DNA of 64,000 bases from Sialis fuliginosa (Eukaryota; Arthropoda; Insecta; Megaloptera; Sialidae): positions 30,268,267-30,332,266 of the forward strand of contig OY540809.1 of NCBI GenBank assembly GCA_961205875.1. The letters run 5' to 3'. The position numbers and the translations under genes were made by a program. Shown here one piece after another: positions 13,672 through 53,629 of the stretch. The notes under the pieces are model-generated. The model was not told the origin of the DNA. It did not search any database and saw only the letters and a list, made by a program, of their open reading frames with translations. Each line of letters starts with the position of its first letter. Position 1 is the stretch's first letter.

Positions 13672-14644
13672 AATACATATATATATATAATATATAAAAA
13701 AAGGTTATTTTGAGAAATAAGCCGTCAAAATTATTTTTAAAATCTTTTTATTTTCAATTAATAAAATATGATTAATGTATATACAGAGGTAATTAAATAA
13801 AAATTATATAATTTAATAAAAAATACGCCCAATTAATGTGTTATTATTTGGCGATCCCGATGACTGGAGTTCGGATAAATAGAGTTCTACTGTAGTATAT
13901 AGGTAATATAATTTATTATAATCATTGAAGATTTAACTCATATACTACTATACTTGTATTGTATTTTACTAAATGGCACGTTTATACGAGTATTGGTATG
14001 TGTTTTTTTAAGTGGCCTCAGCTATTAATGTCAAAGACCCTTTTAGCTATTAAGTTTTAGAAAAAACTTGTTACTTTTAATTTCTTTTGAGCAAACCGTA
14101 TTCGATTTATGCTGAGCGCTTCCTTTTCAAGTAAGTGAGTATTAATGCTTTAAAATGATACTTAAAATATATACAGGAAATGTCATAGAATATGTAATTT
14201 ATATCTGTATTTTAACTATATTTATTTTATGTGTTTATATATATATTACATTTGTAATAATACATCTGATAGTAAATTGACAAAATAAAATTTATTTGGA
14301 CTATAAGAGAGATTATAAATCTTTTGCAATGAGCTTAAATATGACATTATATTTATCGATTTATTTTATAAACTACACAATAACACATTTAAAATTTATA
14401 TTTATAGGAATTTTACAATTTCTAGCTTGGGTGAATATTTATTAATGTTTATTATATTTGGTTCCCTAAATTCAATCTGAGTTATATCCAATGTATTTAA
14501 ATTATTTAAACCTTGGAATGCTTCATAATTAAGATTCCAGCGAATTTTCTCGAAAACTAAGCTGTGTTAAATTCCCTAAGTCTTTAAACATTCCAGGAGA
14601 CAATTTAGTTAATTTGTTTTGAGTTAAATGCAAGTATTCTAAAT
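13672..14644. other. AT-rich DNA with a solitary pogo-like end
   Basis: At 13840-13892 TTCGGATAAATAGAGTTCTA followed by CTG and TA reads, on the minus strand, as a CAGTAGAACTC pogo-type terminus. No opposite end is visible. A (TA)n run lies at 13677-13692. Nothing else is supported. Confidence 0.4.
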
Positions 14645-14649
14645 CAAGC

Positions 14650-14906
14650 TTATCCAAGCCGCGGTCCGCGAGGATCTTCGGTGCGGCTCGCGAGGATAAT
14701 TTAAAAAAAATAAATAAAATAAAATTTATAATAATAAACCTGCATTGAAATTAACGCGACAAAAAAAAGGTCTTCAGTTTTTATTTTTCCTAATCTGACT
14801 TTATTTATTCAATAAAAAAAAGGTCCTCAGTTTTATATTCTGGCCTGCGGCCCTTAGTAAATTGAGTTTATGCTATGCGGCCTAGAAAGTTCAAAAGGTT
14901 GGATAT
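14650..14906. mobile_element. possible hAT-like MITE with CGCGGNCCGCGAGG interior
   Basis: The ends TTATCCAAGCC and the complement of ATATCCAACCT are inverted. The interior has paired GC-rich blocks (GCCGCGGTCCGCGAGG, then GGCCTGCGGCCCTTAGTAAA and TGCGGCCTAGAAAG) separated by AT-rich DNA. This pattern resembles hAT MITEs, but I see no convincing 8-bp duplication, so the boundaries and class are tentative. Confidence 0.4.
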
Positions 14907-23372: not shown

Positions 23373-23847
23373 GTATTATAATTTAATTTTTAATAATAAT
23401 AAAATAGCAATGATTAAATGGCTATAATTGGTTAAAGTCAAGACACTTTGCCTGCTGTATGTATTCGTTAATTTGTTTTGCAATTATCTATGTTACATGT
23501 GCGAACGTTTATTTAATGACTGCAATTTGTAAATAATTTTTTTGACAATCAGTTACGCAGACATTACACAATAATCATTTTACATTTACTTATTTTTTAA
23601 TTTAAATTATCACATATTTGTTTAATATTATTTATGAGAGTATCTACAGTGTATAATTTAATAATTATACATTCATATATACATTATATATACGCATACA
23701 TAGGTAAGTATATACACATAAAAAGGTTAATCTAAAGCAAGAATTTATTGTTTTCATCCGACAATATTGTTTTAAAGAGAAACTATAATATACCTAGTTG
23801 GAAATATCATTATATTTTAATATTAAGAAAATACTGTTTATGATATA

Positions 23848-24971
23848 TACCGGGTGTTCCAGACCACCCGTCCACTATGTTTTACGCCTAAACTATTAGA
23901 GATAGAGTTATATGATGAAAAATTTACTATATATATCGACCCTAAAGAATTTCAGGAAAATATTTTCAACCTCCTAAAACTTCCCCTTGCGGGGTAGTTT
24001 GAGGGGTACATACCCGTTTTTCAGCAAAATCAAATGGAATGGTATATCTAAAAGTAGATAATTTTAAAAATCATAAAAAAGTAAGAAACTTTTGTAAAAA
24101 AAATTTTTTCATACATTCAATTGTTTAGATAATATGGCGACTTGATCCTAAATTTTAGGGTTTTACTAAAATTGCTCTAGTTTCGTTAAATATTAATGAA
24201 ATTTTATTTTTTAAATTTGTTTTGAAAGTAGAAATAACGAACTTTCTAATGATGTATGATTATTTGAGAATTGGATAATTTAAAGTGTCATACGCGACAT
24301 GTAAAAATTTAAAACTTCAAATGGGGATAATTCAAAAATTTTAAATAGAATGATATATCAATTAGTACTTTATCTTAAAAAATATATTTAAATTAACAAC
24401 TTTTGTTAAGAAAATTTTAAATGTAAAATTATAAATTTTTTAATTTAAAAAAAATAAAATTAAAAATTTTCTTTTTTAAAATTTTTGAATTATCCCCAAT
24501 TGAAGTTTTGCATTTTTGATATGTCGCGTATGACACTTTAAATTATCCAAATCTCAAATAATCATACATCATTAAAAAGTTCGTTATTTCTACTTTTAAA
24601 TAAAAATTTAAAAATAAAAATTCATTAACATTTAACGAAACTAGAGCACTTTCAGTGAAACACTAAAATTTGGGACAAGTCGCCGTATTTTCTAAACAAT
24701 TAAATGTATGAAAACATTTTTTTTACAAAAGTTTCTTACTTTTTTATGATCTTTAAAACGATCTACTTTTGGATATACCGATCCATTTGAATTTGTTGAG
24801 AAACGGGCATGTACCCCTCAAATTACCCCCCAAGGGGGAGTTTTAGGGGGTTGAAAATATTTACCTGAAATTCCTTAGGTTCGATATATATAGTAAATTT
24901 TTCATCATAAAACTCTATCTTTAATAGTTTGGGCGTAAAACATAGTGGACGGGTGGTCGGAACACCCGGTA
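23848..24971. mobile_element. 1.12-kb foldback element, almost entirely palindromic
   Basis: The ends are ACCGGGTGTTCCAGACCACC and its near-complement ending 24970. Arms of about 500 bp (23849-24345 and 24475-24970) are complementary with scattered mismatches. Landmarks in both are CATAGTGGACGGGTGG, AGTTCGTTATTTCTAC and GTGTCATACGCGACAT (or complement). The loop is only about 130 bp. TA flanks both sides if the ends are read as CCGGGTG. There is no coding capacity. The whole element could fold into a long RNA hairpin if transcribed. Confidence 0.9.
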
Positions 24972-25294
24972 TACAGTGAAACTGTTTATAGCGCTATCCC
25001 GTTTATTACGCGCTTTTGCCATGATCCTGACCTCGACACATTAATTAATATACACATATTCCCGTTTTTAACGCTCACAAATCCCGCAAAACGCATAAAA
25101 GTTTGTGTTGATAAAGAAAACCTTTTGTCAAAATCAAGTATGTAATTTATTATTTTACATATATTATAATAAAATTATGATTCTACATTTAAACACATTT
25201 TTAGAAAAAATATTCATTTTCTAATTTATTTCCCGCCTTTTAACGCGTTTTTGATCCGACCCGCTCAAGAACGTTATAACGAAGTTTCACTGTA
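24972..25294. mobile_element. pogo-like MITE abutting the foldback
   Basis: The 319-bp sequence 24974-25292 has ends CAGTGAAACTGTTTATAGCG and, reversed, CAGTGAAACTTCGTTATAAC. TA lies at 24972-24973 and 25293-25294. It starts directly against the foldback's final ACCCGGTA, the two sharing the TA junction. The 66-codon frame 24945-25145 spans the junction and is not a gene. Confidence 0.8.
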
Positions 25295-26581: not shown

Positions 26582-26655
26582 TTACTATGTCCGGGGCTAC
26601 CCTCCTTCTTTTGTGTTGCCAAAAAATTAAGGCCAAAAAAAGTTTGTTATGATTA

Positions 26656-27181
26656 TACAGGATGATTTACAACTAGTGTAAAAAAAAATTACAGTAGATC
26701 GAGGATGTAATTTTAAGCAAAAAACTTTATGTGAACTTGTGTCCGGAAGTTTTTTATGAGGGAGCTAGTCTTTTGCCTAAAATGAGTGTTTATTTAATAT
26801 CTAGAGAACCATTGTGGTACAGTTCTAAATTTGACACAGGGTTTGGTATTAATAAGTGTAACTCAGGAAAAAATTCAAAAACAAAAAAATACTTGATAAA
26901 AATCGGCGGGCCCACTGGCCCCATACACCTTTGGTCTAAATTATTATTATTTGGTACTGGAAATCGATAACACTTATTAACACCAAACTCTGTGTCAAAT
27001 TTTATAACTGTACCACAATGGGTTATATATGCAGATATTAAATAAACACTAATTTTGGGGAAAAGACTGTAGCTCCCTCACGAAGAATTTTCGGACACAG
27101 GTTCACATAAAGTTTTTTGCTTAAAATTACATCCTCGATCTACAGTTAAATTTTTTTACACTAGTTGTAAATCATCCTGTA
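26656..27181. mobile_element. foldback family F, copy 1 (522 bp, TA target)
   Basis: The ends are CAGGATGATTTACAACTAGT and its complement, with TA at 26656-26657 and 27180-27181. The arms 26658-26865 and about 26960-27179 share TTTTAAGCAAAAAACTTTAT, TGTGTCCGGAA and GATATTAAATAAA-type blocks. The spacer has the asymmetric GGGCCCACTGGCCCCATACA. It is inserted into the pogo-type element around it. Related copies are at 30590-31766 and, as a single arm, 60917-61145. The open frame 26731-26970 is a by-product. Confidence 0.85.
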
Positions 27182-27320
27182 TATTACTTATATTTAATTA
27201 ATATGATTGAAAAGTTCCTAGTTTGATTTTAAGATTAAAATAAAGACAGAAAATTTGTTTATTGTATTTTGATTTGCAATTCGTTTAAGTGTCCGGGGTT
27301 ACCTGACGTTCGCCGACATC

Positions 27321-28990: not shown

Positions 28991-29667
28991 CATACTAATA
29001 TTTTAAATGCGAAAGTGTGTCTGTCTCTCTGTCTGTTTTTAATTTTTTTTTTGTAATTAATATTTTACCCCTCGTTACATATGAAAATACTACGGGGGCG
29101 GTGGGATCTAGGGGAAAAACAACCCTCTATCTCGCATAGGAGACGAGATATTTACGATTTTGTATAATGAAAGAAAACTAAAAATAAGAAAAATTTAATA
29201 TTTCACCTCCTGTCACATATGAAGGGTTGTAATTGGTTACATTCGATCTGGCGGGAATAATACTATGGAAAATAACCCCTTATCTTACATAGGAGTCGCG
29301 ACTTATATTATAAATGCGAAAGTGTATCTCTCAGTCTGTCTATATGTTACCTGTTCACAACTAAACCGCTTTACCGATTTTGATGAAATTTGGCAGTGAG
29401 ATAGCTTACATCCCAAGGACGGACATAGGCTATTTCGTATCTCGAAAATTCAACCCCTAAGGAATTGCAAAAGGATTGAAAAATTTGTATATGGAATTTT
29501 TTTTAGTAATAAAGATTTCATCCCCTGGCACATATGAAGGGTTGTAATTAGTTTTATTCGATCCGGCGGGAAAAATACCATAGGGTGGGGTTTTAGAAGG
29601 AAAAATAATATATCATGGGGATGGAGGTATCGAAATCCACGCGAGCGAAGCCGCGGGTAACAGCTAG
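28991..29667 (+). mobile_element. Helitron/RTE-like repeat, compound copy
   Basis: Heads occur at 28991 (ACTAATATTTTAAATGCGAA) and again at 29303 (TTATATTATAAATGCGAAAG). There is one tail at 29640-29667 (CGCGAGCGAAGCCGCGGGTA, ACAGCTAG). Between them lie diverged copies of a module with ACATATGAAGGGTTGTAATT, GATC(C/T)GGCGGGAA(A/T)AATAC and AGGAG(A/T)CG. The same module is amplified at 49.1-50.3 kb. A 12-G homopolymer lies just upstream (28950-28961). It looks like a tandem or nested pair of copies. Confidence 0.6.
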
Positions 29668-30395: not shown

Positions 30396-31999
30396 TAGGG
30401 CCGTTTTTCCACACACCGGCAAAAAACGGCACCGGCACCGGCCATGGCTCTTTTCACACACTGGCATTCTCAGTGCCCATTTGCCCATGCCGGTGCAGTT
30501 GAGTTCTAGTTGTGGTGATTGAAACGACATGTCTGCAGTGATTAATAAGCGTCACTTTCATGGGTTATTATACCTCAGAAGGAAGTATACAGGGTGATTC
30601 GGCACTGTCGTGCCAAACTTGAACAGTACATCGAGAAAAATATTTTAAGCAAAAAACATTATATAAACATGTGTCCGGAAATTTGTCATGAGGGGGCTAC
30701 AGCCCTCTAAAGATTTTACTCAAAATTAGTTTTTATTTAATATCTTGAGAACCTATTGTACCATAGTTATGAAATTTGATACAGGGTTTAGTATTAATAA
30801 GTGTTATATATATCCAGTAACAACCAATAATAATTTTGACCAGGGTTGTATGGGCCCAGGAGGCCCGTCGATTTTTATCCAGTATTTTTTGTTCTTCAAT
30901 TTTTTCCTGAGTTAAAAATTTGAATAAGACTGTATGAGACAAAATACACAAAAATATACTTTGCTCATTTATCATAGGATAAACCGTTTACGAGAAATAT
31001 CGATGCAGAAGAAAGCATGCAGAATTTTACTTAATACAGATGCTTCAAATTAAACAAAATAAATTTAAATTTCTGTTCTTTGATTAAAGGTAAGAAAAAA
31101 GTACATATACATATATCACCTAATACGTGTCCTATTAGACCTATAGCCAGTTCTATTAATGTTGCAAGTAATTTACTAACACAACTATAGAAAGGGATAT
31201 TTAAAATGGCTATTTGTTGGTAAGGCTGAATTTTTGGAGGTATATTTTTATTATCTTTTTGTCTTATTTTTTATCATACAACAAGAATATAAAAATATTT
31301 TTTGTAATTTGAAGCATCCGTATTAAGTAAAATCTGCATCCTTTCTTTTGCATCCATATTTCTCGTAAACGGTTTATCCTATGATAAATGAGCAAAGTAT
31401 ATTTTTGTGTATTTTGTGCCATACAATCTTATCTAAATGTCTAATTCAGGAAAAAATTAAAGAACAAAAAAATACTAGATAAAAATTGATGGGCCCACTG
31501 GCCCCATACAGCCCTGATCTAAATTATAATTGCTCAATACTGGAAATCGATTACACTTATTAATACTAAACTCTGTATCAAATTTCATAACTTTAGCACA
31601 ATGGGGTCTCCAGATATTAAATAAAAACTAATTTTGAATAAAACTTTGAAGGGCTGTAGCCCCCTTACGAAAAATTTCCGGACACATGTTCATATAATGT
31701 TTTTTGCTTAAAATATGTCTCTTAATTTACTGTTCAAGTTTGGCACGACAGCATTGAATCACCCTGTATAAATCACAAATATAAAAAAGGCAGTATTGGG
31801 TACATCCTCTGTTGACTGTAAGATACTTATCTGATTGTCGAGTTCAACGCCGACAGCATTTGACGGTGCCGGTGTCGTCACCGGCAAATTAACCGGGCCG
31901 GACTACGTGGAAAAGCTCTGATTTGATTACATTGCAACCGGCGCCGTCACTGGCACCGGCACCGGTACCGGTTTTGACGGTGTGTGAAAAAACGCTCTA
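30396..31999. mobile_element. MITE-like element E2, second copy of the 886-2122 family, interrupted by a foldback
   Basis: GGGCCGTTTTTCCACACACC from 30398 and, reversed, GAGCGTTTTTTCACACACCG ending 31997 are the termini, with TA on each side. Subterminal CGGCACCGGCACCGGCC hexamers and GCCGGTGCAGTTGAGTTCTA match copy E1. Removing the nested foldback (30590-31766) leaves about 420 bp, equal to E1 without its own insert. There is no coding capacity. Confidence 0.8.
30588..31768. mobile_element. foldback family F, copy 2 (1177 bp, TA target)
   Basis: The ends are CAGGGTGATTCGGCACTGTC and, reversed, CAGGGTGATTCAATGCTGTC. TA lies at 30588-30589 and 31767-31768. Long complementary arms (about 30590-31075 and 31275-31766) share TCGTGCCAAACTTGAACAGT, ATGTGTCCGGAAATTT, TCATTTATCATAGGATAAAC and AGCAT(G/C)C blocks. 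GGGCCCACTGGCCCCATACA at 31490-31510 is shared with copy 1. It is inserted at AAGTATAAATC of element E2, where E1 has AAGTATATAAATC without it. Confidence 0.9.
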
Positions 32000-42855: not shown

Positions 42856-44083
42856 CAGGTCATTAAAATTAGTAATAAGTGTAAAATTCAAGTTGATTTG
42901 GTATAGTGACAATGTTACAAATATTTTATGATTTATGATTAGCCATTTTAAAATTTAATAATAAATAATATTCTTAATTTTTATCTCATGTTAAACATAA
43001 AATTAATTTTCATTAAAATCTGCGAGTGTATCACTTTCAGTTTTATTTTTGCTATAACTATGTTATTAAACTATATATTTCATTATTAAAATTTTTCCAG
43101 ATTTAATTTTTATCAATTTGTGAGGTTCTTATAAGCTTATCAAAAGAATAAAATATAAAAAAAGTTTTTGACGTTGAACTACGTCTTTCCTGACATTCGG
43201 TACATTATTTTAGATATTTTTTTCGACACAATTCTTTACAACATTATTTAGTTCAATATTCAACGATTTAGGCTGCGTATTACAAAAAAGCGCTCTGGCG
43301 GCAAATTTTTTTCCGACTTGATTTACTATTATCGTCACTGCTTATTCTTTATGTTACCTAACGTAACAAAATATAGTCTATAACCCGTCCAGAGAATATA
43401 TCTATATGAATTAAAAATAAAAAACACGTAAATCGGATAAGTGGTTCTCGAGTTATAAGCGCACTAACGGACAGACAGACAGACATTGAGCTTTATATAC
43501 ATATGTATATTAAGGATGGGGCTTAAAGCCAAAATAAAACAACATCGAAAATAAAAGCTAGCAACCACTGCTTTATACGTGAGTCGGGTAGAGGATGTTT
43601 ACTAAAAAGTGTAGTAATTTATTACAGTAAATAAAAATCAATACCGATTTAACACGTCCATCTATTCGGGGCTCCCAGTTCGACTCCGGGTGGTGAAATG
43701 GCGCTGCTATTCACGGATCGTAGGAGGCTGTCGATTGGCTGCGACATCCCCACCACTTTACCGACCTTCCCCTACGTTCAGTTCGCTGTAAAATGTTTTC
43801 CCAATATTTAGTGTACTGCTGTTTGCTCTTTTTTAAGTATGACAATAAAAAACGACCCTGCTTTTTTATAGATTTACTTGCTTGGAGGTGTTTTTATATT
43901 GTGACAGCCATTTTGTTAGTTTTGGACAAATGGTTCTCTTAAAATGATGTTGACATTAAGTATAATGGTGCTAATTGTTTTATTTTATTTGTTATGGATG
44001 TATTTTGAGATTCACACTATTGTTAGATTTTAATTGAGCAAAATTTACAATTTTCAGGGCTGCTTATGCAAAGTGTACCAACA
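42856..44083. other. intergenic DNA; repeat tail at ~43430 and a GC-rich island at ~43655-43790
   Basis: AAGTGGTTCTCGAGTTATAA followed by GCGCACTAACGGACAGACAG (43438-43478) is a common insect LINE/SINE tail type. At 43663-43790 GGGGCTCCCAGTTCGACTCC and following sequence are GC-rich. GTTCGACTCC resembles a tRNA B-box, so a decayed tRNA-derived SINE is possible, but no A-box or clover-leaf can be drawn. Confidence 0.4.
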
Positions 44084-48407: not shown

Positions 48408-48423
48408 GTATTAAACGGGTTCC

Positions 48424-48805
48424 GGTCAATTTATCGTAAACAATTTATCGTAAACAGTTTATCGTACAACAGTTTATCGTAAAACAATTTACCGAACGAA
48501 CAATTTATCGTATGAACAATTTACCGTAAGAACAATTTATCGTAAAACAATTTATCGTAAGAACAATTTATCGTATGGACAATTTACCGTAAGAACAATT
48601 TATCGTAAAACAATTTATCGTAAGAACAATTTATCGTATGGACAATTTACCGTATGAACAATTTATCGTAAAACAATTTATCGTAAAACAATTTCTCGTA
48701 GAACAATTTATCGTAAAACAATTTATCGTAAAACAATTTATCGTAAAACAATTTATCGTAGAGCAATTTATCGTAAAACAATTTATCGTAAAACAATTTA
48801 TGTAT
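48424..48805 (+). repeat. left terminal array of ~25 CAATTTATCGTAAAA units
   Basis: The units are 15-16 bp, with variants TTACCG, TTCTCG, and TAAGAA or TATGGA spacers. A higher-order pattern of TATCGTAAAA / TATCGTAAGAA / TATCGTATGGA / TACCGTAAGAA repeats twice (48541-48650). A 15-bp period keeps a reading frame open and creates an apparent FIVKQ-repeat peptide, which is not a gene. Confidence 0.9.
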
Positions 48806-49097
48806 TATTATTGTCACAGACTCCACTGGACTTTCTTATACGTATTAAGGTCAAATCAATTATGAAAATATTATATAATATATTATTATATAGAAACCTT
48901 GTTTTCTAATTTTATCAATTAAAAAAAATGTACAGATGCGTATTAAGTTAGATTTTAGGCCCAAATTATTAAAATAATAAATACACATTACATATAAATA
49001 ATATATATAAACCTTATTTATTATTTAATCAATTAAAAAAAATGTACAGAAGCGTATTGAGTAATTATTGAGACCCGTGTATTAAACTAATTAATAA

Positions 49098-50330
49098 ACT
49101 CACAACTCGCCCCCTGTCACAGATGGAGGTTGTAACTGGTCTCATTGGATCCGGCGGGAAAAATACTATAGGATTCTAGGGGAATGGGGGGCAAAACAAC
49201 CCTCTATCTAGCACAGGAGTCGAGATATTTACGATTTTCTGTAATGAATACCATAAGTAGCGAAACAGAAAAATTCAATATTTACAATAAATACTGCATA
49301 TAAACATAAGATATTATTATTTAATTTAATAGAATGAAATAAAAAGTTCAGGCATGTATTAAGTGATATTTTAGGCCCGTATTGTTAAAACAACAAATAC
49401 ACATATGTATATAGAAACCTTGTTTATAATTTAGTCAGTTAAAAATAATTGTACAGAAGCGTATTGAGTGATTTTTGAGACCCGTGTATTAAACTAATTA
49501 ATAAACTCACAACTCGCCCCCTGTCACAGATGGAGGGTTGTAACTGGTCTCATTGGATCCGGCGGGAAAAATACTATAGGATTCTAGGGGAATGGGGGGC
49601 AAAACAACCCTCTATCTAGCACAGGAGTCGAGATATTTACGATTTTCTGTAATGAATACCATAAGTTTCGAAACAGAAAAATTCAATATTTACAATAAAT
49701 ACTGCATATAAACATAAGATATTATTATTTAATTTAATAGAATGAAATAAAAAGTTCAGGCATGTATTAAGTGATATTTTAGGCCCGTATTGTTAAAACA
49801 ACAAATACACATATGTATATAGAAACCTTGTTTATAATTTAGTCAGTTAAAAATAATTGTACAGAAGCGTATTGAGTGATTTTTGAGACCCGTGTATTAA
49901 ACTAATTAATAAACTCACAAATCGCCCCCTGTCACAGATGGAGGGTTGTAACTGGTCTCATTGGATCCGGCGGGAAAAATACTATAGGATTCTAGGGGAA
50001 TGGGGGGCAAAACAACCCTCTATCTAGCACAGGAGTCGAGATATTTACGATTTTCTGTAATGAATACCATAAGTAGCGAAACAGAAAAATTCAATATTTA
50101 CAATAAATACTGCATATAAACATAAGATATTATTATTTAATTCAATAGAATGAAATAAAAAGTTCAGGCATGTATTAAGTGATATTTTAGGCCCGTATTG
50201 TTAAAACAACAAATACACATATATTAAATAGAAACCTTGTTTATAATTTAGTCAATTAAAAATAATTGTACAGAACCTTATTGAGTGATTTTTGAGGCCC
50301 GTGTTTAATTAATAAACTCGCCTCTGTCAC
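49098..50330 (+). repeat. three near-identical 408-bp tandem units
   Basis: Units start at 49098, 49505 and 49913 (ACTCACAA(C/A)TCGCCCCCTGT) and differ at only a few bases. Each contains CTGGTCTCATTGGATCCGGC, ACAACCCTCTATCTAGCACA and AGTTCAGGCATGTATTAAGT. The right arm has one inverted unit (about 50650-51060). The module is also found, more diverged, in 29060-29640, so it derives from the Helitron/RTE-like repeat. Confidence 0.85.
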
Positions 50331-51340
50331 GTGATGAAAGAATGTAATATAACATTGTTTTACATTGAACTGTTTACCATAAATTGAACGCAAATCGATT
50401 AAATAATATTCAATGTTTCTAAATAGTAGGTATACGTGAATTTGTTATTTTAAGAATACAGGCCTATATTATCACTTGATATACATCTGTACATTTTTAA
50501 AATTTATTTAATTTAGTAATAATATCTAAGGTATATTATTATTGTGTAAGAGGTGGATATTGATTTTGTTTCTTTTTCACTATTTATTCATAATAGAAAA
50601 TCGTAATTAACACGTCACCTATACGAGTAAGGGGGTTGTTTTTAATTAGTTTAATACACGGGACTCAAAAATCACTCAATACGCTTCTGTACAATTATTT
50701 TTAACTGACTAAATTATAAACAAGGTTTCTATATACATATGTGTATTTGTTGTTTTAACAATACGGGCCTAAAATATCACTTAATACATGCCTGAACTTT
50801 TTATTTCATTCTATTAAATTAAATAATAATATCTTATGTTTATATGCAGTATTTATTGTAAATATTGAATTTTTCTGTTTCGCTACTTATGGTATTCATT
50901 ACAGAAAATCGTAAATATCTCGACTCCTGTGCTAGATAGAGGGTTGTTTTGCCCCCCATTCCCCTAGAATCCTATAGTATTTTTCCCGCCGGATCCAATG
51001 AGACCAGTTACAACCCTCCATCTGTGACAGGGGGTGATTTGTGAGTTTATTAATTAGTTTAATACACGGGTCTCAATAATTACTCAATACGCTTCTGTAC
51101 ATTTTTTTTAATTGATTAAATAATAAATAAGGTTTATATATATTATTTATATGTAATGTGTATTTATTATTTTAATAATTTGGGCCTAAAATCTAACTTA
51201 ATACGCATCTGTACATTTTTTTTAATTGATAAAATTAGAAAACAAGGTTTCTATATAATGATATATTATATAATATTTTCATAATTGATTTGACCTTAAT
51301 ACGTATAAGAAAGTCCAGTGGAGTCTGTGACAATAATAAT

Positions 51341-51721
51341 ACATAAATTGTTTTACGATAAATTGTTTTACGATAAATTGCTCTACGATAAATTGTTTTA
51401 CGATAAATTGTTTTACGATAAATTGTTTTACGATAAATTGTTTTACGATAAATTGTTCTACGATAAATTGTTTTACGATAAATTGTTCATACGGTAAATT
51501 GTCCATACGATAAATTGTTCTTACGATAAATTGTTTTACGATAAATTGTTCTTACGGTAAATTGTCCATACGATAAATTGTTCTTACGATAAATTGTTTT
51601 ACGATAAATTGTTCTTACGGTAAATTGTTCATACGATAAATTGTTCGTTCGGTAAATTGTTTTACGATGAACTGTTTACGATAAACTGTTTTACGATAAA
51701 CTGTTTACGATAAATTGACCG
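51341..51721 (-). repeat. right terminal array of ~25 inverted units
   Basis: This is the mirror image of 48424-48805, with the same unit variants in reverse order (GTTTTACGATAAATT, CTTACGGTAAATTG). The close match between arms points to recent formation or ongoing gene conversion between them. Confidence 0.9.
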
Positions 51722-52180
51722 CAAATCGTATTAAACATAGAATAGATTTATGATTACAATACGATTATAAAAAATACTAAAAAAATTTTTTTTTTTTTTT
51801 GTGAAGTTCGTTATAGCGAATGTTCGTAAGCCAAGAACTGCCTGTATAAGTTTTTGAGAGTCTGCACTACTTTTGATTATAATTATTGCTATTATGTATT
51901 TTAGATTCGGTTTTCGTCCAAAACTCTAGACCAGTGTCTGTCAAATTTTTTTACTTTACGACACTCTGGGCGGGGAGGATTTATTTCACGGCACACCAAA
52001 TAAAAATCCCAATAAAATTTAAATATATTTAACTAGTATACATAAATTACAAATACATAAAATAAACATTATAATAAATACATTATAATAAAATAATATA
52101 TTTAACCCTACACTGCACAGTGATGCATATTTGCATCACACAAGTTTTCCGCCTATAACTTAAAATTTAAAAAGAATTAA

Positions 52181-52330: not shown

Positions 52331-53629
52331 GAGCCGTTGATTTTGAAAGTGGCCTAACTCCATTTATGTTTAAACTGAGATATTAAAGAGTTTGCGTTTC
52401 AATAAAATTAAAAATATACGTGTAAGATATCAATGTGCCACATTGATTAAGTGTTTCTAAGGGAGTTAAATTTATAATTACTATTAAAATAACCCCAATT
52501 ATTAAATCAATAATATGTGTTTTTTTACCACAAATGGAGTTAGGCCACTTTCAAAATCAACAATTACGTTTGTTATTAATTTAAAAGAACTCAACTCCAT
52601 TTGTAGTTAGTAAAAATGCTTCAAATAAAAAATAAAAAAAATACTCATTTTAATTTATATTATTTCTTTATAACTCTTAAAAAATTATACAATTCAGGAA
52701 ATCTAAGTATGTATACAGGTGATTTTTAAGTCTTGAGATTGTTTAATATCTGGAAAACTATGGATTTTTAGGGAAAATATTTGGTACAAAAGTTTCAGGA
52801 TTTAGAGGGGCAAAATCAATGGAGTTAACAATTTCGACCTTGAGTGGAGGTTTGAAGGTCATTTTAGGGTCAACAATTTTTTTTCAAAGGAAATCTATTT
52901 ATTTTTTTGGAGATTCGTATTTTGCAGAAAAAAAGAAATAACTTTTGTCTGAAAAGTTTTGTAAAAAATTTCAATTTTAACATATTTTTTTAAATTTTGT
53001 AACATTAAAAAAAAATTTTTTGCTTTAAAAATTTATGAAATTATAAAAAAATTATTTTTTTAAACTGCATTTTTTCTCAAACATTTAAGATAATAATTTC
53101 AAAATTTTTGATCACAAAAAAATTTTTTTGATGTAAATTTTTTTTTAAAGTTACGTTAAAATTGAAATTAAAAAAAAAACTTTTCAAACAAAAGTTATTT
53201 CGATTTTTTTGCAAAATACAAATCTGCAAAAAAATAACTAAGTTTCTATTTAAAAAAAATTTACTGACCCCAAAATGACCTTAAGACCTCCACTCAAGGT
53301 CAAAATTATTACCTTCATTGGGTTTGCCCCGCCAAATCCTAAAACTTTTGTACCAAACATTTTCCATAGAAAGCTTTCGTTTTCCAGCTATTGTGATAAA
53401 TAAATCAACATTATTAATAATGAAGTGGAGTTAGGCCACTTTCAAAATAAACTTTTTAACTTGAAATTAATTATGAAAATTAATGTGTTCAAAAATTTAT
53501 TTTCCTTTGAATATATTTAACCAAAAATTGTTTTTTATGATAGTTTACTTCTAATTATACATGTTACTACAGTCAACAAAAAAAATTTGAAAAATGGAGT
53601 TAGGCCACTTTCAAAATCAACGGCTCATA
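52328..53629. mobile_element. 1.3-kb foldback element (TA target), innermost level
   Basis: The ends TGAGCCGTTGATTTTGAAAG and its exact complement (52330-53627) are flanked by TA at 52328-52329 and 53628-53629. The long arms share GTGGCCTAACTCCA, GACCTTGAGTGGAGG, AAAACTTTTGTACCAAA and AATACGAATCT/AGATTCGTATTTTGCA-type blocks. The motif TGGAGTTAGGCCACTTTCAA occurs four times (twice in each arm or its complement). There is no coding capacity. It interrupts the piggyBac transposase. Confidence 0.9.

Follow-up and report, generated by a model that had tools for sequence, protein, structure and literature searches.

The window analysed here, a 64,000-nucleotide stretch of Sialis fuliginosa DNA (C1:30268267-30332266 in a source genome of 392,097,322 bases on 20 contigs), contains one copy of a recently active transposon family. 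The element spans window positions 48417-51727 (3,311 bp) between two copies of GTATTAAAC, a perfect 9-bp duplication in direct orientation. We are confident, short of certainty, that it is a non-autonomous cut-and-paste DNA transposon of the Mutator (MULE) superfamily, of Phantom type and in foldback form. Taken separately, MULE membership is very likely and the Phantom type likely, and mobilisation of the family most likely depends on a Mutator-type enzyme encoded at another place in this genome. The original prediction described a perfect 9-bp direct repeat around a 3.3-kb inverted-repeat element with FB-like architecture and a tie to Mutator. Both the boundaries (48408-48416 and 51728-51736) and the assignment were borne out, the latter now read as a Phantom/Mutator-type foldback element. 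It works like a foldback element, and its likeness to Drosophila FB is one of architecture.

Each arm begins with a 10-bp tip and continues through an array of short tandem units and a stem of ~105 bp into 408-bp repeats, of which the first copy is diverged and which are more numerous in the left arm than in the right. The parts, in window coordinates, are as follows.

48408-48416, plus strand: left target-site duplication GTATTAAAC
48417-48426, plus strand: G tip GGGTTCCGGT, one end of 23/23 copies read; 74 exact 26-mers genome-wide
48427-48801, plus strand: left array; its 24 full units and single cut unit repeat a 12-bp core, CAATTTATCGTA, separated by spacers of 2-4 bp
48802-48906, plus strand: left stem sequence
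48907-50308, plus strand: 408-bp tandem repeats of the left arm, starting with a diverged copy and varying in number among element copies
50310-50640, unstranded: middle domain, in which no coding potential was recognised; L014 and the C3:25.01 Mb copy carry it inverted with respect to the tips
50641-51237, minus strand: right-arm 408-bp repeats, about 1.45 copies, inverted
51238-51342, minus strand: right stem sequence
51343-51717, minus strand: right array, 24 full units and one cut unit, mirroring the order of the left array
51718-51727, minus strand: D tip GATTTGCGGT, the opposite end in 23/23 copies read; 74 exact 26-mers genome-wide
51728-51736, plus strand: right target-site duplication GTATTAAAC

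Tandem Repeats Finder counted 24.5 copies of the 15-bp unit on each side (48427-48801 and 51343-51717), on opposite strands, which agrees with the earlier estimate of about 25 units per side, with the refinement that the arms comprise array, stem and 408-bp repeats. Two-unit matches with at most 3 mismatches numbered 23, compared to 0 in 100 shuffles. The unit can alternatively be split into the 12-bp core and spacers of 2, 3 or 4 bp (2, 13 and 9 spacers per side, respectively). The inverted arms are 98.4-98.8% identical across ~1.09-1.1 kb. The outermost 68 bp account for seven of their 16 differences (the 10-bp tip for 3, the first four units for 4), units 5-15 for none, units 16-25 for three, and the 705 bp of stem and 408-bp part for six. 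Unit variants follow the same order from both ends, with 22/25 in common order (maximum 15 in 5,000 shuffles).

No frame of at least 110 codons was found in the window, no Pfam family scored above the curated cut-off in six frames of the element, and an Rfam search of window and element returned nothing. Single-strand DNA folding of three short strings from tips and units gave z-scores of -0.09 to -1.64 and no convincing structure. A dispersed repeat at window 29111-29584 is similar to patches of the 408-bp repeat, so part of the element's interior may, from this likeness, be captured DNA.

Could the flanking match have arisen by chance? As a control, pairs of sites 3.3 kb apart were drawn at random 20,000 times, and 2,316 draws touching the element were skipped; of the 17,684 usable ones, 165 had a 9-mer match within ±10 bp and none had it at the exact offset. 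GTATTAAAC was found five further times, within the 408-bp repeats, which makes the duplication of the window copy less telling alone; other copies settle the question. The same internal occurrences lend some colour to an account without any transposon, a segmental inverted duplication of a minisatellite, since the flanking match in the window copy alone could mislead. We nevertheless consider that account extremely improbable given that 23 copies have fixed tips, that 21 of them carry exact duplications of 8-9 bp, and that empty sites exist for three.

The original prediction expected the 15-bp unit to recur in inverted pairs, and it does: a two-unit 30-mer has 403 exact matches genome-wide (207 + 196; control 0), and 61 pairs are defined by their tips. 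We read 23 two-ended copies, namely the window copy, 17 loci read from their arrays, four completed later, and one (L050) picked for its size. The sample is not random, 22 of the 23 having been taken from the top 100 places listed, on contigs C1-C3. The copies are 1,767 to 9,842 bp long, and in 18 of them the arms hold 0 to 5 of the 408-bp repeats and 12 to 28 of the 15-bp units.

Target-site duplications were found throughout this set. An exact 9-bp duplication flanks 17/23 copies, the window copy included, as had been predicted. Four copies (L017, L024, C1:31.31 Mb and C3:25.01 Mb) have an exact 8-bp duplication, the different length that the original prediction had named as evidence against itself; 8 bp is also reported for the MULE Muta1 (PMC5225508). 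The remaining two duplications are imperfect (L012 matches at 8/9 positions, L011 at 7/8). Thus 21 copies lie within the 8-10 bp expected of MULE/Phantom elements. The duplicated sequences are distinct among copies except for L015 and L023. When the flanks of 18 copies were cross-paired (306 pairings, 289 informative because the left flank of L025 was unread), a 9-bp match appeared only in the two orders of L015/L023.

Paralogous empty sites exist for three copies other than the window copy. The joined flanks of the 18 copies were compared with 276,720 bases (L009-L038 and the window), and alignments across the flank junction were obtained for L010, L015, L023 and L025. The empty paralogues of L010 (ATTAATAAG) hold a single target, including those at window 30654-30948 and 31408-31702. 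Those of L023 and L015 (TATATTTTG) likewise hold a single target, exact at window 43222-43499 and with one base different in the two paralogues within L012. L025 was not counted, its target alignment being poor.

L015 (C1:39.41 Mb) and L023 (C2:36.31 Mb) occupy the same nucleotide position within copies of a single host repeat. The divergence between them is 1.29%, while L023 is closer to L016 (0.49%), and their left flanks are 96.3% alike over 135 bp compared to 80.5% over 339 bp for the right flanks. The closeness of L023 to L016 and the unequal likeness of the flanks make two insertions likelier than one copied locus. On these sequence comparisons the two are probably separate insertions, and their shared site suggests a target preference.

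The strict pairing of two unequal tips is the family's most interesting feature. All 23 copies have one G end and one D end, with G on the left in 12 and D on the left in 11. This reading sought the two motifs, so ends with an altered motif would escape it; an array-based reading that made no use of the tips (17 loci and the window) gave the same result in 18/18 copies. Genome-wide, the exact 26-mers of each tip occur 74 times (controls 0). Neighbouring convergent exact tips less than 20 kb apart form 61 pairs, of which 32 are G-D, 29 D-G, and none G-G or D-D. One G-G convergence on contig C14 belongs to two adjacent elements and does not involve neighbouring tips. An exact partner is lacking for 26 of the 148 tips, six of which belong to read copies whose opposite tip is changed within the 26-mer.

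Side-specificity extends over the outer ~60 bp of the 18 array-read copies. Three tip columns are specific in 18/18 copies on each side, and the unit-shift columns do not overlap between sides (the unit is absent from 5 G arms); one column near base 60 shows 2 and 1 exceptions. These patterns could mean that the transposase complex must engage a G end together with a D end, with a left/right code in the outermost ~7 bp (or perhaps ~60 bp) always retained, and with all sequence further in free to be exchanged or inverted between arms. We advance this tentatively, at somewhat short of an even chance. It is close to a coin-toss that the strictness instead reflects descent from one asymmetric founder, with exchange between arms rarely reaching the outermost bases; this account concerns the pairing of tips only and is compatible with a Phantom-type foldback element. 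The copies are young (median difference between copies 1.62%), leaving little time for tip conversion, and they share descent, so that the 61 pairs are not 61 independent trials. Yet mixing between sides has already occurred in the inner arms, and two copies carry an inverted middle domain, while like-like pairs remain 0/61. The family offers a clear way to test whether both kinds of tip are required.

Inside the tips, homogenisation of the arms is partial: the outer ~60 bp are side-specific, and the inner arms are mixed between sides. Across 36 arms, compared over the stem and first 408-bp repeat, the median difference was 1.05% within copies and 1.62% between copies, so that the arms of one copy are somewhat more alike than chance. 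The between-copy median was 1.62% for same-side and opposite-side comparisons alike, and separate left and right lineages were therefore rejected for the inner arm. (Mean differences are higher, 5.8-6.5%, because the G arms of L011 and L012 hold unlike sequence.) The partner arm was the nearest relative in 8/36 arms, ties counted, against an estimated ~1 under random pairing. The predicted recent homogenisation is thus borne out only in part. As the family is young, general recent homogenisation is not needed.

The middle domain was tested in 22 copies. It is inverted relative to the tips in L014 and in the C3:25.01 Mb copy, present in both orientations in C1:31.31 Mb, and in the window orientation in the other 19, one of which (L011) retains only 65 bp of it. 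The inversions in two copies are of the type expected from such arms, and would be what crossover or conversion between inverted arms leaves behind.

What could move such an element? A MULE-domain profile (PF10551) identified 10 places in the source genome. At the best of these, L039 on contig C5, a 15-bp array lies ~0.3 kb behind the gene, with a tip, GGTATCCGGCGAG, directed outwards. Its unit, CAATTTTTCGAAACA, matches the unit of the window family at 12/15 positions, which 430/100,000 shuffled units equalled, and the similarity of its tip to the G tip was reached by 2/20,000 shuffles. The tip occurs at 103 places with at most 2 mismatches (16 exact), which puts the chance of nearness to any of the 10 MULE matches at about 0.009. 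The L039 gene is broken into pieces but has a MULE domain (E=6.5e-17) and, read with X at the stops, a FLYWCH domain (E=6.9e-17), the domain pair given for Phantom (PMC3169594). Its protein pieces are 35% and 36% identical to a stop-free FLYWCH+MULE frame in L041. Such frames without stops occur both in L041 (C7:18.23 Mb; 482 codons) and in L044 (C8:1.32 Mb; 479 codons), which are 94.8% identical over 2.9 kb and have different flanks; no arrays were found within the 3.3 kb read. L041 and L044 are candidates for an enzyme working in trans.

Several points weigh against this assignment. The original prediction looked for a full-length copy with a MULE/FB transposase between its arms, and no transposase-bearing copy of the window family was found in the MULE-domain search (10 places) or in a search with the L039 protein (8 places); the domain searches were six-frame and would miss split domains. 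The transposase-linked array and tip, behind the broken FLYWCH-MULE gene, belong to a sister family. Within the 9 kb read, the far side of the L039 gene showed no array, which makes this sister copy one-sided and not a foldback. The L039 tip resembles the D tip more weakly than the G tip (128/20,000 shuffles), with the likeness confined to the shared array part. Finally, the role of the 12-bp core as a transposase binding site is proposed by analogy. In L049, ATAAATTAG could be a 9-bp duplication flanking the sister copy, but the case is weak, as ~0.4 chance copies per 9 kb are estimated.

No match to the MULE domain or L039 protein fell inside an exact-tip pair (61 pairs by eye, the eight largest by script). 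The nearest case is on contig C8, where L044 begins ~0.7 kb outside the D end of a 5.1-kb element. Large copies were considered as autonomous candidates and rejected. L050 (C14:471901-481900) has been swollen to 9.8 kb by foreign DNA holding an open retroelement-like frame of 1,737 codons, which we take by eye to be BEL/Pao-like; it gave no Phantom match by tblastn, and its 9-bp duplication, GTAAAAATC, is intact. Pairs of 12 and 15 kb, themselves unread, had no MULE match within them by position.

A foldback element could also be moved by another transposase that makes long duplications, such as Rehavkus (9-bp duplication, minisatellite, PHD finger) or a P/Galileo-type enzyme, and we regard this as improbable. 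Galileo duplications are 7 bp, compared to 8-9 bp here, and in this genome a homologous array and tip stand behind a FLYWCH-MULE gene. Some weight remains on the other side, as Rehavkus is tabulated with 9-bp duplications and a minisatellite (PMC6446971), and the foldback form is said to arise in more than one superfamily (PMC4079207, PMC3169594).

On the Phantom-type reading, a transposase encoded elsewhere would bind the repeated 12-bp core in both arrays and would pair one G tip with one D tip. Cutting at the tips and insertion at a staggered cut would then produce the 8-9 bp duplication. The fit to the Muta/Phantom group of MULEs comes from the terminal motif, the spaced subterminal repeats, the 8-9 bp duplications and the non-autonomous copies with varied interiors.

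Among the descriptions compared, each of them in part, the nearest architectures in print are those of Muta1/Muta5 and Tm1. Muta1, a MULE of Aedes aegypti, has a terminal motif of 10 bp, then nine 12-bp repeats separated by 3-4 bp, and 8-9 bp duplications, and is called a type 2 foldback element by its authors; Muta5, from the same species, has an 8-bp terminal motif and 9 copies of a 15-bp repeat (PMC5225508). The window family shares with both the terminal motif, subterminal tandem repeats, 8-9 bp duplications and non-autonomous derivatives with foreign interiors (PMC5225508), and has the long inverted ends with subterminal tandem repeats seen in the Aedes Muta families. It differs in having 12-28 units per arm (18 copies) rather than 9, a second level of 408-bp repeats, different tips at its two ends and no transposase. 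The Muta1 terminal motif is an imperfect palindrome (PMC5225508), whereas the tips here, by eye, are not. In aphid Phantoms a minisatellite behind the transposase reading frame is tabulated, and the Muta elements are placed in the Phantom group (PMC6446971).

Tm1, a Mutator/Foldback family of Meloidogyne with a Phantom-like transposase, resembles the window family in its asymmetric outer motifs (7 bp in Tm1), 3-bp step, variable numbers of 13-15 bp repeats, mostly 9-bp duplications and gene-less copies (PMC3169594). The sequences differ (CGGTTAA, CCTACCC and a 14-bp unit, compared to GGGTTCC, GATTTGC and CAATTTATCGTAAAA), and Tm1 has a transposase-bearing copy (PMC3169594), while none was found for the window family. 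If one end of each kind is indeed needed, the asymmetric motifs of Tm1 would represent the same rule in another phylum, and foldback MULEs would be two-ended machines in the guise of symmetric hairpins.

The window family also has the long inverted arms of short tandem repeats and the duplication length (9-10 bp) that mark Drosophila FB elements. FB4, compared by description only, is similar in its long inverted arms (~700 bp), 9-10 bp duplications and non-autonomy, and its transposase is termed unknown there (PMC8277862). Tetris of Drosophila virilis likewise has variable-number tandem repeats in its arms, 8-10 bp duplications and no transposase, but its repeats are of about 220 bp, and the portion of its description compared mentions no 15-bp arrays (PMC4079207). 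Foldback elements are known mostly by shape, the enzyme being unknown for some (FB4, PMC8277862). A young family with 61 exact two-tip pairs, together with a sister array behind a FLYWCH-MULE gene, makes the link between foldback arms and a MULE transposase testable.

Further observations concern the family. L013 and L012 have unshared interiors similar to dispersed repeats in the window, and the L012 interior is a tandem pair of about 0.9 kb at 97%; Pfam found nothing above the curated cut-off in 10/12 frames of these interiors (two L012 minus frames were left out). Exact G tips crowd near one contig end on C14, where the initial 1.8 Mb out of 16.8 Mb hold 8/10 (p about 6e-7, chosen post hoc). 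The same holds for C10 (6/6) and C11 (7/7), where they lie in the first 2.9 Mb of contigs reaching at least 20 Mb; on C1 and C2 there is no crowding at the very end. Exact array patterns had 0 matches in IMG/VR viral contigs and prokaryote genome contigs. A literature search with the unit and tip strings returned only titles unrelated to transposons, and we claim absence from print no further than this.

Elsewhere in the window are imperfect palindromes without loops (30586-31770, 23846-24973, 52745-53392, 26654-27183 and 2196-2646), whose arms are 73-88% alike and which are probably other foldback transposons. Those at 30586-31770 and 23846-24973 have ends ACAGGGTG and CCGGGTG beside TATA, and the insertion target of L010 belongs to the family of the palindromes at 30586-31770 and 26654-27183. 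On the minus strand, window 14532-14750 encodes a leucine-rich-repeat stretch (Pfam LRR_8, E=2.3e-8); among the 10 window frames tested, no other matched above the curated cut-off.

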